This document shows, in pieces, positions 27,376 through 33,199 of a stretch of 33,199 nt of DNA; positions within the stretch are counted from its first letter, which is position 1; each line of letters starts with the position of its first letter. A program made the position numbers and the translations under genes. Below the pieces are notes generated by a model that saw nothing but the letters and a program-made list of their open reading frames with translations, made no database searches and was not told the DNA's origin. The stretch is from an uncultured Ignavibacteriales bacterium. GTDB lineage: Bacteria > Bacteroidota > Ignavibacteria > Ignavibacteriales > Ignavibacteriaceae. Location: assembly GCA_937858935.1 (NCBI GenBank), contig CALLZX010000010.1:1-33199 (forward strand), written 5' to 3'.

Positions 27376-27869
27376 TCACTCAATCCAAAACTCCCAAACA
27401 TAATATGGGCAGGGGATATTTGGTTTGTTCATTACCGCATAAAAGCTATACTCAATTATAGAGTCATCAAAATCAGAGAGCAGAACAATAAAGATAGGAC
27501 TAAGAGCAATATTTTGTCTTACGTCAGTTATTATTCCCATATCATTATGGCAATCGTATATTGCTGGTCTGTACCACGCAGCCGCAATGTTGAAGCCTTT
27601 TGCATAAAGCATATTAAGAAATGCATCTATTTTATCTTCATTAATGCCTTTTATATCAAACCTAAACTGGTAGTAAAAACCTTCATCAGGCAGCCAATTG
27701 TTTCAAAGGTATCAATAATACTGTAAGTAAAATCAACAATGTGGTCTTTATCAGCTTTTGTTTTCTTTACTGTATGCTTAGGTAAAACAACTTCTGTGTA
27801 ACAGCTTTGCATTGTTAAGGCAAATGCAAGTAAAGCAAACAGCATTTTTATTTTATGGTCAAGTTTCAT
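27376..27869 (-). pseudogene. Small lipoprotein gene broken by a -1 frameshift
   Basis: Two overlapping-frame pieces form one gene. The first, from ATG 27869, encodes a lipoprotein signal (MLFALLAFALTMQSC) and reads to DFTYSIIDTFE. After about 27701-27703 the frame must shift by one base, whereupon it continues NNWLPDEGFYYQFRFDIKGINEDKIDAFLNMLYAKGFNIAAAWYRP to the stop at 27376. Adding one A to the GAAAC run restores one 164-residue protein with no internal stop. The product has no recognised family; it ends CPYYVWEFWIE. It lies six bases after the methyltransferase gene, hence in that operon. Either recent decay or a homopolymer sequencing error could explain it. Confidence 0.75.
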
Positions 27870-29677: not shown

Positions 29678-29986
29678 CTACAGCTCTTGTAAATCAGCAA
29701 GATAATCAAGCTCTGTATATTCGTTATCAGTAATAATAGCTCTGCCATTTTTTGTAACTAATGCAACGTTAGATCCTTTTTTCCATTCACCCGAATTACT
29801 TTTAAGAATGGTATAAAAAGTTTTTCCATCGTACATAGCGTTTATCACTTCGTCCTTGGTCCAGGTAGAACCTGCACCAACCTCATCACCGGTATCCTGA
29901 TGAACTTTAAGATATGCAATAGCGTTCTTGCGCATCTCGTTTTCATATCTTATAGCAGAGATAAGATAATCAGCCCATTTACTCAT
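29678..29986 (-). CDS. DUF3892-domain protein
   Basis: A 102-residue cytoplasmic protein, starting at ATG 29986 selected by GAGGGAAC upstream; the frame extends twelve codons further upstream without support. The pattern KWADYLISAIRYENEMRKNAIAYLKVHQDTGDEVGAGSTWTKDEVINAMYDGKTFYTILKSNSGEWKKGSNVALVTKNGRAIITD matches DUF3892. Family function is unknown. The 28-bp palindromic repeat lies 163 bases upstream of the start, so regulation by the neighbouring two-component system is possible. No second gene is in this unit. Confidence 0.82.
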   Translation of the reverse strand: MSKWADYLISAIRYENEMRKNAIAYLKVHQDTGDEVGAGSTWTKDEVINAMYDGKTFYTILKSNSGEWKKGSNVALVTKNGRAIITDNEYTELDYLADLQEL

Positions 29987-30149
29987 GTTGTTCCCTCGTT
30001 CATTGTTTTTGTTTATTTGCAAACTTCTATGCTGTTAAAATTATTTCTAAGAATATTTCGTTATCTGTAAAATGTGTTAATCTCTTTTGCAGATACCTAA
30101 ATAATTTTCTTAAAAGAACTACCTAATTATAATATCGGAGGGTTGATTT

Positions 30150-30177
30150 TGGTTTAGTACATGTACTAACGATTTTT
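30150..30177. promoter_or_regulatory. 28-bp repeat with 16-bp palindrome, copy 1
   Basis: TGGTTTAGTACATGTACTAA continued by CGATTTTT. The core TTAGTACATGTACTAA (30154-30169) is a perfect palindrome. The identical 28 bases recur at 31297-31324. It lies upstream of the DUF3892 gene on the minus strand. A dimeric regulator operator is the most plausible role. Confidence 0.7.
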
Positions 30178-30204
30178 GATCAAAAACGAAGAAAATGAAA
30201 AAAA

Positions 30205-30786
30205 TTAGTCCTTAAAGGCCGGTGTAACGTTGTAAGTTAGCTTTTGATGGTCTTCTCTGAATGTTGCAAAGAAGATTGCAAGTAGAATTTGAAATGCGAG
30301 ATTTAAATAAAATAAAATTATTGCCTGGTGATCTCCATTAAGATAAATAATCAAACTTGCAACGGAAGTAGTCATATAAAACGCCAGCACTAAATGAAAG
30401 ATATTTACTATCTGTTTATGATGCAGTTCCAGAATTATTTTAAAAATAATTCTTAATAATATAAGTGTATGAATTACAAGCATTATGATATCAAGATTTG
30501 AAATTGTAAAATAAAGTACAGCAGTTAGAATAAATACAAAAATCTCAACCGGAGTTATTGTGAATTTTTTTTGTCTATCAATGTTTATTGAGAAAAATAA
30601 TAACGGTGCAATGATTACGGAAATTACAACCGGGGAGAGGTGAGTTACTTTCATAAACAAACTTGCCAAAGGATCTGATATACCGAGTAACAAAAAAAAG
30701 TAAAATAAATTACATCTATATTGCCTGAATATTGGGAATATCCAGGCAAGCATTGAAAGATATAAAATTATAATTGCTAGCGGCAT
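30205..30786 (-). CDS. Polytopic membrane protein, unknown
   Basis: A 193-residue protein with six likely membrane helices, starting at ATG 30786, which shares one base with the stop of the upstream lipoprotein gene (TAATG) and follows GGAAG. The frame extends nine codons further to another ATG at 30813, less likely. Helices include PLAIIILYLSMLAWIFPIF, CNLFYFFLLLGISDPLASLFM, VVISVIIAPLLFFSI, VEIFVFILTAVLYFTIS, IIMLVIHTLILLRIIFKI, and SLIIYLNGDHQAIILFYLNLAFQILLAIFFATF. No family is recognised. It ends downstream of a lipoprotein and a two-component system, suggesting membrane-stress or envelope function. Confidence 0.78.
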   Translation of the reverse strand: MPLAIIILYLSMLAWIFPIFRQYRCNLFYFFLLLGISDPLASLFMKVTHLSPVVISVIIAPLLFFSINIDRQKKFTITPVEIFVFILTAVLYFTISNLDIIMLVIHTLILLRIIFKIILELHHKQIVNIFHLVLAFYMTTSVASLIIYLNGDHQAIILFYLNLAFQILLAIFFATFREDHQKLTYNVTPAFKD

Positions 30787-31229
30787 TAATCTTCCGGACA
30801 AAGTGGCGGACATTTAGCGCCGCTTTCAAGTGTATAATTTCCAAGTGAAACAGAGAGAACTTCTCTTCTTTGTTCGATTACAACTGATTGTGAATTACTT
30901 TTAGAAAGTAATTCTTGAACAGCAGAAACATTATAAGCTGTAAAAACATCAGTGTCTGAATATTCAGCTTTTGCAGGGTATAGTAATTTACGGTTGTTAT
31001 CCAATATGATAGTAATCTTATTAACCATGCCAAACATTATCGTCTTTTCAGTTTTATATAAGAGTTCAATAACTTTTTCGCGCTGTACTTCGCCCGAAGA
31101 AATTACAGCTCCAAATTGCTGATATGCTTCTGTGTTTGTATAAACTTTACCGATTTGTTGTGTTGGACTACAGGACAAAAACAACAAAAGTAATACTGAA
31201 ATAGTGATGAAGTGATAAATTTTGTTCAT
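30786..31229 (-). CDS. Small lipoprotein, unknown
   Basis: A 147-residue lipoprotein starting at ATG 31229, with AAGGA ten bases upstream; the frame is open to 31337 but the preceding 36 codons lack support and overlap the repeat. The signal ends FLSC (MNKIYHFITISVLLLLFLSC, Cys20). The mature part has a beta-strand pattern (GKVYTNTEAYQQFGAVISSGEVQREKVIELLYKTEKTIMFGMVNKITIILDNNRKLLYP) and a Cys pair near the end (CPPLCPED). No family is recognised. It is preceded by palindrome copy 2 and its stop overlaps the next start, so the two genes are coupled. Confidence 0.78.
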   Translation of the reverse strand: MNKIYHFITISVLLLLFLSCSPTQQIGKVYTNTEAYQQFGAVISSGEVQREKVIELLYKTEKTIMFGMVNKITIILDNNRKLLYPAKAEYSDTDVFTAYNVSAVQELLSKSNSQSVVIEQRREVLSVSLGNYTLESGAKCPPLCPED

Positions 31230-31296
31230 AGCGATCCTTGCATATAATGATAAAAATATTTTTTGCAATGGGAACATATTAAAAATACTCGGATAA

Positions 31297-31324
31297 TGGT
31301 TTAGTACATGTACTAACGATTTTT
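31297..31324. promoter_or_regulatory. 28-bp repeat with 16-bp palindrome, copy 2
   Basis: Identical to 30150-30177; core TTAGTACATGTACTAA at 31301-31316. It lies nine bases beyond the response-regulator stop and 67 bases upstream of the lipoprotein start, a position suited to an operator or upstream activator site. Confidence 0.72.
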
Positions 31325-31333
31325 TAGGATTCA

Positions 31334-32011
31334 TCATACAGGCTTCTCCTTTTTTTGCTCAAAATGCTTAATTCCACACTTTGCTAACTCGATCTGTGTC
31401 TTAATATTAAACTTTCTTAAAAGATTAGAACGGTAATAATCAATAGTTTTTTTACTTAACAGCATTTTATCAGCAATATCTTTGCTGGTTGCTCCATCAA
31501 TTATCATTTGCAGTATTTGTTCTTCGCGAAAATTTAAATCAACATTAAAAAATAAATCTTCTTCTGATTTTTTTTCATAGTCATTAAATAACTGAGCAAG
31601 AGCTTCCTCGGTCCACTTACTGCCGAAATATTTTTCTCCGTTATAGACTTTATCTATTGCTAAAAATAATTCATCTTCTAAAATATTTTTGTTAACTAAA
31701 CCCATTCCACCGGATTTAATAACTTTATATACATATTCACCGGCATCGTACATTGATAAAAACAATGCTTTAGCTTTAGTATCCTGTTTAAGAATTTCCT
31801 GCACACTTTGTATTCCGGTTAATCCAGGCATTGCAATATCTGCGAGCATAATATCAGGATGATAATAAAAATACTTCTCAATAAGTTCAATACCGTTTTC
31901 AGCTTCTGCTATAACAGTAAAATCTTTATGATCCTCCAGAAGTCTGATAACACCTTGCCTGAACAAAGTATGATCATCAGCTACTAATATTTTTATAACT
32001 CGATTTTTCAT
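31334..32011 (-). CDS. LuxR/NarL-family response regulator
   Basis: A 225-residue DNA-binding response regulator. The N-terminal receiver has the acidic pocket D12-D13, phosphoacceptor D58 (IMLADIAMPG), S86 and K108 (GLVNKN). The C-terminal GerE/LuxR helix-turn-helix is LNFREEQILQMIIDGATSKDIADKMLLSKKTIDYYRSNLLRKFNIKTQIELAKCGI. Its ATG lies inside the end of the histidine kinase gene, overlapping by 35 bases, so the pair is transcribed and translated together. The stop is followed by palindrome copy 2, so its own target may be the downstream genes; direct binding is not shown. Confidence 0.95.
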   Translation of the reverse strand: MKNRVIKILVADDHTLFRQGVIRLLEDHKDFTVIAEAENGIELIEKYFYYHPDIMLADIAMPGLTGIQSVQEILKQDTKAKALFLSMYDAGEYVYKVIKSGGMGLVNKNILEDELFLAIDKVYNGEKYFGSKWTEEALAQLFNDYEKKSEEDLFFNVDLNFREEQILQMIIDGATSKDIADKMLLSKKTIDYYRSNLLRKFNIKTQIELAKCGIKHFEQKKEKPV

Positions 32012-33199
32012 CTTGATTTATAGTTTCAATCGGGAAAGCGGCTATAACTACAGTTCCGCTGTTGTTAGTAGAATCTATTTGAAAAGTGCCGTTTAATTTT
32101 TCAACAGTTTCCTGCATATTCATAACACCAAGGCCGTCTGAGATATATTTATCATTTAAAAGTTTCTTTGGCTTGAATCCAATCCCATCATCAGAAATAA
32201 ATAACACAAGTGTATCATCATCCAGCAGCAAATTAATATTGAATGAAGTTGCTTTTGCATGTCTTATTATGTTGTTAAGTGATTCCTGTATAACTCTAAA
32301 TATACAAACTTCAAGTTCTTTAGAAATGCTTAATTGATGTTCCGGAAATTGTAGTTGATACTTAAAACCTGCTTCACGAGCAACATTGTTACACATTGAT
32401 TTAACGACTGTTTCTAATCCAAGTTCTTCTATGTTAAGTGGTTTTAAATTGTGTGCAAGTTCGCGTATATCTTTTAATGTTGAATCGAGAATGTTTATCG
32501 TTCTTAGATATTCATGTTCATCTAACCCGGCATTTATAAACTTTTTATAGTTACCAACATTAAGTTTAATCAGTAGCATATTCTGTGCGATAGAATCGTG
32601 CAAAATTCTTGATAATCTGTTTCTTTCTTCTTCTATTACTTTTTGTAAATGAGCTGAAGAGTTTCTAAGCAGGTTTTGATAGTTTGTCATTTGTCTATCA
32701 TATTCCTTCTGTGCAGTTGTATCCCAAAAGTAAAGTTGAGCCATATCCAGAAAAGAGATTCCATGAAAATTGATATCATAATATCTGTCCTTCAATTCCA
32801 AAGGAAGTATAAATGATTTATCATTCTGGATTATTCCTTTTATATCAATTTCAATTTTAGAAACAATTGAATCAAGGCTGCTTTTATTTATTTCAAGCAG
32901 CGGAAATCTTTCTTTGGCCGATTTATTTAAACTTGTTATTAAACCGGAAGAGTTAATTCGCATAATAGGATTCGGATCAAGTTCAGAAAACATAGCAAGT
33001 ATTTTTGCAGTGGTCAACTCAAATTGCTTTTGATCTTTTCTGTGTTTTCTCAGCATCGGATTATAAATATATCTATAGGATATATAGATAATTGCTGTAA
33101 CCAAAATAAAAATTAAGATAGATATGTAGACAGGATTATAAAAGCTCGGTAAAGATTTTAGATATTCGTTTACCTCGCTGGATTTTTGAAATAGAAGCT
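31977..33199 (-). CDS. NarL-type sensor histidine kinase (5' end beyond window)
   Basis: A sensor kinase visible for about 406 residues; the frame runs open through the right window edge, so the N-terminal sensor is cut off. A membrane helix (YISILIFILVTAIIYISYRYI) is visible near the edge, followed by a PAS-like segment (DPNPIMRINSSGLITSLNKSAKERFP). The HisKA_3 dimerisation site is EEERNRLSRILHDSIAQNMLL with the phospho-His in LHDS, and the ATPase domain shows VIQESLNNIIRHAKA (N box), DDGIGF (G1) and DGLGVMNMQETVEKLNG (G2). It overlaps the cognate regulator gene. The input signal is probably detected at the membrane or periplasm, from residues outside the window. Confidence 0.93.
   Translation of the reverse strand, partial: LLFQKSSEVNEYLKSLPSFYNPVYISILIFILVTAIIYISYRYIYNPMLRKHRKDQKQFELTTAKILAMFSELDPNPIMRINSSGLITSLNKSAKERFPLLEINKSSLDSIVSKIEIDIKGIIQNDKSFILPLELKDRYYDINFHGISFLDMAQLYFWDTTAQKEYDRQMTNYQNLLRNSSAHLQKVIEEERNRLSRILHDSIAQNMLLIKLNVGNYKKFINAGLDEHEYLRTINILDSTLKDIRELAHNLKPLNIEELGLETVVKSMCNNVAREAGFKYQLQFPEHQLSISKELEVCIFRVIQESLNNIIRHAKATSFNINLLLDDDTLVLFISDDGIGFKPKKLLNDKYISDGLGVMNMQETVEKLNGTFQIDSTNNSGTVVIAAFPIETINQDEKSSYKNISS

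Follow-up and report, generated by a model that had tools for sequence, protein, structure and literature searches.

In the LiaSR and VraSR systems of Firmicutes, a HisKA_3 kinase and a NarL-type regulator switch on neighbouring membrane-protein genes. For regulators of uncultured Ignavibacteriota almost no operators have been mapped to our knowledge, and literature searches by regulator subfamily, motif type and phylum found no study of the subfamily described here. NarL of Escherichia coli binds 7-2-7 operators such as TACCCCTAAAGGGGTA; at napF, where it acts as an activator, its 7-2-7 site is listed at -40 to -49 (PMC4549865). The window analysed here, a 33,199-nucleotide stretch of DNA from an uncultured Ignavibacteriales bacterium, encodes a two-component system whose candidate operators share this geometry, namely inverted heptamers with a 2-bp spacer, 16 bp in total, and a GerE-type helix-turn-helix dimer as the predicted binder. 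The half-site is TTAGTAC instead of the TACCCCT-like half-site of NarL, and the NarL helix KVHVK aligns with DYYRS in the window regulator. The NarL regulon serves nitrate respiration whereas the window regulon is tiny and local. The regulator scores 110.6 bits on the NarL equivalog model, whose cut-off is 250, and is not a NarL orthologue; the circuit is predicted from its sequence to work like a NarL-type class II activator. The LiaSR/VraSR systems resemble the locus in their HisKA_3 kinase, NarL-type regulator and adjacent membrane-protein targets, and VraR is the best solved relative of the regulator, followed by NarL; DevR is another solved relative. They differ in phylum and operator, and the accessory lipoprotein and 7-helix protein of the window match no Pfam or NCBIfam family; no LiaF or LiaIH homologue was identified in the window system. 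UhpAB and NarXL, which are also HisKA_3 systems, share the catalytic part of the kinase and the regulator architecture, but NCBIfam scores fall far below the equivalog cut-offs and the kinase N-terminus and the targets differ. The half-site, the regulon and the accessory proteins appear to be undescribed.

Two identical palindromes in the window are best explained as operators of the adjacent NarL-type regulator, which would activate two promoters from a class II position (probability about 0.87). All genes concerned lie on the minus strand, and sites, flanks and -10 hexamers are given in gene sense. The transcription order is sensor kinase, regulator, operator 2, lipoprotein, polytopic membrane protein, operator 1 and DUF3892-like protein, with the following features:

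31977..33199, minus strand: HisKA_3/HATPase_c sensor kinase, 406 amino acids, open at the contig end (Pfam)
31334..32011, minus strand: NarL/FixJ-type response regulator with receiver and GerE helix-turn-helix, predicted binder of both operators (Pfam, alignments, solved relatives)
31317..31324, minus strand: A-rich upstream flank of operator 2, AAAAATCG (flank conserved, 21 aligned sites)
31301..31316, minus strand: candidate operator 2, 5' of the lipoprotein/membrane-protein genes, 17 bp beyond the regulator stop (conserved in relatives)
31273..31278, minus strand: -10-like hexamer TATGTT, exactly 22 bp 3' of operator 2
30786..31229, minus strand: lipoprotein, 147 amino acids, conserved C-terminal CPPxC, predicted target gene and probable sensor accessory
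30205..30786, minus strand: polytopic (about 7-helix) membrane protein, 193 amino acids, second in the lipoprotein operon
30170..30177, minus strand: A-rich upstream flank of operator 1, AAAAATCG, putatively UP-element-like (21 aligned sites)
30154..30169, minus strand: candidate operator 1, TTAGTACATGTACTAA, a 7-2-7 inverted repeat 5' of the DUF3892-like gene (conserved in relatives)
30126..30131, minus strand: -10 hexamer TATAAT, exactly 22 bp 3' of operator 1
29678..29989, minus strand: DUF3892-like protein, 103 amino acids, predicted target of operator 1

The repeat pair is exact and confined to this locus. Positions 30150-30177 are identical to 31297-31324, and both 28-bp copies contain TTAGTACATGTACTAA as a perfect 16-bp palindrome (30154-30169 and 31301-31316, the palindrome coordinates given in the original prediction). 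The pair represents the sole exact direct repeat of at least 20 bp in the whole window, where about 2e-7 pairs of 28-mers are expected by chance at the window composition. The gene-distal side of the palindrome carries a conserved block, AAAAWTC[AG], in 21 aligned sites, and it is the conservation of this A-rich flank, potentially a UP element, that extends the identity past the palindrome. A pattern search of the bacterium's own genome (3.46 Mb, 472 contigs) found no third exact copy of the 28-mer or the core in this 84.8% complete assembly, and the look-alikes of the core that differ at two bases fall within a long open reading frame or at its end. Combining the core with the -10 pattern at up to two mismatches revealed no further place in this genome. 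At three mismatches a search of the genus returned background only, with controls outnumbering matches, so that weak sites are not callable. The scan that had been proposed together with the original prediction thus yields two copies, both beside the regulator, and not dozens at random.

The regulator shows both expected domains (PF00072, 1.4e-20; PF00196, 4e-15) and its active-site residues D12, D13, D58, S86 and K108 are invariant among ten homologues. Its recognition helix, TIDYYRS, comprises residues 189-195. By inspection, the kinase has one hydrophobic stretch near the N-terminus; its promoter is not visible in the window because the contig breaks off within the kinase gene or at its edge. 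The palindromes lie in gaps upstream of minus-strand genes as originally described, with one adjustment: the lipoprotein reading frame as listed, from 31337, would overlap operator 2. Its true start is probably the ATG at 31229 (MNKIYHF...LSCS), which places operator 2 upstream of the gene and not inside it. The product of the gene 3' of operator 1, called a DUF3892 protein at the time, scores 13.9 bits against a PF13031 cut-off of 22.3 and is consequently only DUF3892-like. Its homologues reach 18-20 bits, and an additional neighbour gene in one relative, G096, encodes a true DUF3892 protein (34.9 bits).

The lipoprotein and the membrane protein are likely part of a sensing apparatus. Of 391 genomes in the class, 61 encode a member of the lipoprotein family, and 60 of these belong to the same order. 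The lipoprotein gene is mostly followed by that of the membrane protein and often accompanied by a kinase like the HisKA_3 one, even where the regulator is missing. It is this company with a kinase, kept without the regulator, that points to sensing. An AlphaFold model of the lipoprotein (pLDDT 87), with the C-terminal CPPxC invariant, weakly resembles one sliding-clamp-like half (best match with Z 8.9 and an rmsd of 3.0 across 105 residues; Foldseek E 0.03), and the membrane protein gave generic 7-helix matches (Z about 10). Given such weak or generic matches, functional assignment from fold was set aside for both proteins.

The sites are conserved at the same module in all nine genomes that carry the regulator, our own and eight relatives at 52-83% identity, in the form TTAGTACnnGTACTAA. 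The full arrangement of kinase, regulator, site, lipoprotein, membrane protein, site and DUF3892-like gene is found in G000 (the genome of the window), G001, G003, G005, G018, G061 and G096, while G004 and G062 show the same gene order as far as their contigs extend. Every member of the genus that has a close regulator shares this order, and so do two further genera of the family (g14 and g15). G018 and G096 possess an additional site 5' of the kinase gene. The two central bases are AT, AA or TT, a variability that fits a 7-2-7 site. Ahead of the lipoprotein gene, the site is decayed or lost in G001 and G003, and with the shortening in G004 this leaves only the DUF3892-side site near-universal. 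In G004, the gap between regulator and lipoprotein genes (L067) contains an operator centre that naturally lacks 2 bp, TTAGTATGTACTAA; this variant could serve directly to test the 2-bp spacer. The core is thus conserved upstream of orthologues, a check suggested with the original prediction. Sequences from one genus are related and do not represent independent tests; the cases of G002 and of the separate clade g37, described below, are more independent.

The palindromes go with the regulator and not with its target genes. Among 164 genomes of the order, TTAGTACnnGTACTAA occurs in 18, including 9/9 of those with a regulator above 50% identity, and a mirrored-pattern control was nearly empty. 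So that the motif was not picked by eye, we took the intergenic DNA surrounding 49 regulator homologues and sorted every perfect 6-4-6 palindrome in it by inner triplet. GTA accounts for 53 of 123 palindromes in this census, the next best triplet for 6. Lipoprotein homologues had been tried as a route to more operators and failed in this respect; the 40 further loci found in this way, mostly without this regulator, became the negative control, showing no GTA excess (2/63 palindromes). It is the difference between these two sets that assigns the palindromes to the regulator. Tandem sites are spaced 31, 33 or 42 bp apart, about 3 or 4 helical turns. Sites that track the regulator, are few in number and are conserved 5' of orthologues agree with what had been proposed as the simplest reading, in which the neighbouring two-component system controls a few genes close by, and we consider this local regulon the probable one.

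The position of the sites relative to the -10 hexamers indicates a class II activator arrangement. We scanned offsets of 0-60 in both directions for TAnnnT, with a mean over offsets of 1.0. At 13 of 17 promoter-proximal module sites with the outer triplet TTA, the hexamer starts exactly 22 bp after the palindrome (binomial about 2e-13); only offset 22 stands out, and the opposite direction gives 0 at this offset. All orphan sites of G018 and G002 show the same spacing (7/7, of which six are paralogous), as do 4/9 sites of g37; outside the TTA class it is weaker (5/30 in each direction). If the hexamers 22 bp on are -10 elements, the palindrome reaches from about -50 to about -35 and is centred near -42.5. 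A promoter scan found no -35 hexamer pairing with TATAAT at 30126-30131 or TATGTT at 31273-31278. The fixed distance combined with the lack of a paired -35 is what a class II position calls for, and the best reading predicts that the sites stand in place of the -35 box. In G018 (L070, L071 and L072), the genes of several secreted paralogues, whose products bear a type IX secretion tail (Por_Secre_tail), each have TTAGTACnnGTACTAA-type sites 43-67 bp 5' of the listed start with TAT(A/T)AT 22 bp on; the regulon is predicted to be expanded in this genome.

Operators and recognition helices vary together. Modules with YY or FY at residues 192-193 (window numbering) have the outer triplet TTA (9 modules), those with TH or SH have TAC, TCA or TCC (14 modules), those with AH have TAG (2 modules) and the one with KH has GTA. 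TTA is found with Y at residue 193 in 9/9 modules versus 0/17 without it (Fisher 3e-7, kinship ignored). By genome, 14 of 15 with a [YF]YR regulator carry the exact motif as opposed to 4 of 149 without one (Fisher 7e-16, kinship ignored); in one of the 15, G045, A replaces D before YYR. The motifs in the four genomes lacking [YF]YR are two copies inside open reading frames, one orphan in G002 and one at a contig end. Helix positions 192-193 leave part of the variation unaccounted for, since TCA and TAC operators share the [TS]H helix.

The same-genus genome G002 and a separate clade provide the more independent cases. The module regulator of G002 has diverged (41% identity) and has the helix TVDTHRT. 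In its module, tandem sites of the TACGTACnnGTACGTA type, spaced by 31 bp, precede the kinase and follow the regulator. Exact TACGTACnnGTACGTA is present in 1/164 genomes, in three copies, all at this diverged module. G002 also retains one orphan TTAGTAC site with window-like flanks, 5' of a gene for a 246-amino-acid protein. A second, separate regulator clade with YY ([YF]YR) is found in f2/g37, where five of six g37 genomes have exact TTAGTAC sites and the sixth, G123, has TTAGTACAACTACTAA with TATAAT at the same spacing; the TTAGTAC sites of g37 lie at other genes and not at the kinase-regulator module. The f2/g37 palindromes (L081, L082, L084, L085, L086 and L089) are paired 53-54 bp apart around a T/A-rich middle that is often TTTTTGGCAAAAA-like, 5' of other NarL-type regulators and of orthologous genes of unknown function, and possibly represent looping or cooperative double operators. 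Tentatively, and with considerable doubt, a general rule may be drawn for this regulator subfamily in which the core GTA-N4-TAC stays fixed and two or three helix positions (residues 192, 193 and 195), a swap of which would re-address the regulator, mainly determine the outer triplet (TTA, TAC, TCA, TAG, TCC or GTA), and in which lipoprotein, 7-helix protein and kinase form an undescribed sensor unit. If the operator reading is true, the window regulator would be expected to prefer the 28-bp duplex over TACGTACATGTACGTA and the G002 regulator to do the reverse.

In the proposed circuit, the sensor kinase (31977-33199) would phosphorylate the regulator (31334-32011), whose dimer would bind TTAGTAC-NN-GTACTAA and take the place of the -35 box, centred near -42.5 relative to the transcription start and with the -10 hexamer 22 bp 3'. 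The bound dimer would activate the promoters of the lipoprotein/membrane-protein operon and of the DUF3892-like gene, and the output would feed back on the system's own sensing part. Because the lipoprotein and the 7-helix protein travel with such kinases, switching them on is probably feedback, and a circuit including feedback on this pair is likely. Support by sequence comparison covers conservation, genomic restriction, tracking with the regulator, covariation of helix and operator and the -10 spacing, while binding as such, its dependence on phosphorylation, an activating and not a repressing effect, and feedback are our inferences.

The same operators could serve repression, with the dimer over the -35 region blocking RNA polymerase. 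A site over about -50 to -35 could act in this way too, and NarL itself activates some promoters and represses others (PMC4549865). Neither -10 has a good -35 hexamer at the right spacing, though, and the exact 22-bp distance is needed by an activator at -42.5 but not by a repressor, leaving repression unlikely. Control by a different, unlinked transcription factor that governs the neighbourhood by chance would accommodate the sites far from the regulator, such as those at the secreted paralogues of G018 and the g37 genes. Such a factor would need to diverge in step with the adjacent regulator, and the sites go with the presence of the regulator and with the type of its recognition helix, and not with the target genes, which makes this explanation improbable. 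The 7-2-7 geometry fits a NarL/FixJ dimer site, and its covariation with the helix argues for the adjacent regulator as the predicted binder.

The remaining explanations treat the palindromes as something other than operators. A recently spread mobile or REP-like repeat, raised as the alternative in the original prediction, would account for 28 identical bases including asymmetric flanks, and the g37 pairs at 53-bp spacing resemble repeated elements at first sight. We regard it as very improbable: the assembly holds two exact copies, orientation to the downstream gene and the -10 is conserved, the repeat is vertically conserved within the genus, and the flanks prove to be conserved, oriented promoter parts (the A-rich block and the -10 at 22 bp). 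Least credible of all is a transcription terminator or RNA element. Operator 2 does follow a stop codon closely, as a terminator would, since the palindrome lies just past it with a T run on the plus strand, but that T run is on the strand used by no gene here. Terminator-like sites number 0, single-strand folding of the palindromes is no better than that of shuffled sequences (z between -1.0 and +0.2) and Rfam returned no family match for them. Mobile repeat, terminator and RNA family were rejected on these grounds, and class II activation by the adjacent regulator remains our preferred reading.

Operator, promoter position and regulon are thus legible from sequence in an uncultured member of the Ignavibacteriota. 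New relative to the original prediction are the predicted class II placement, the joint variation of operator and helix, and the kinase-upstream sites in two relatives. Regulators and operators that have diverged in step form a natural series on which a change in response-regulator DNA specificity could be tested directly, using short duplexes and a small number of helix mutants, and a defined output promoter offers a handle on the signal of a putative envelope sensor composed of lipoprotein, 7-helix protein and kinase. Separately, the gap after the regulator in G039 (L149) contains an array of GC-richer palindromes (ACGATGTTTACATCGT, ACGAGCTAAAGCTCGT and others), each present three to four times, that looks like a REP-type repeat array. 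Elsewhere in the window, at 27376-27869 on the minus strand, two short open reading frames in different frames (78 and 72 amino acids) match a single 163-168 amino acid reading frame of relatives (L065 and L068), representing either a frameshifted gene or an assembly error.
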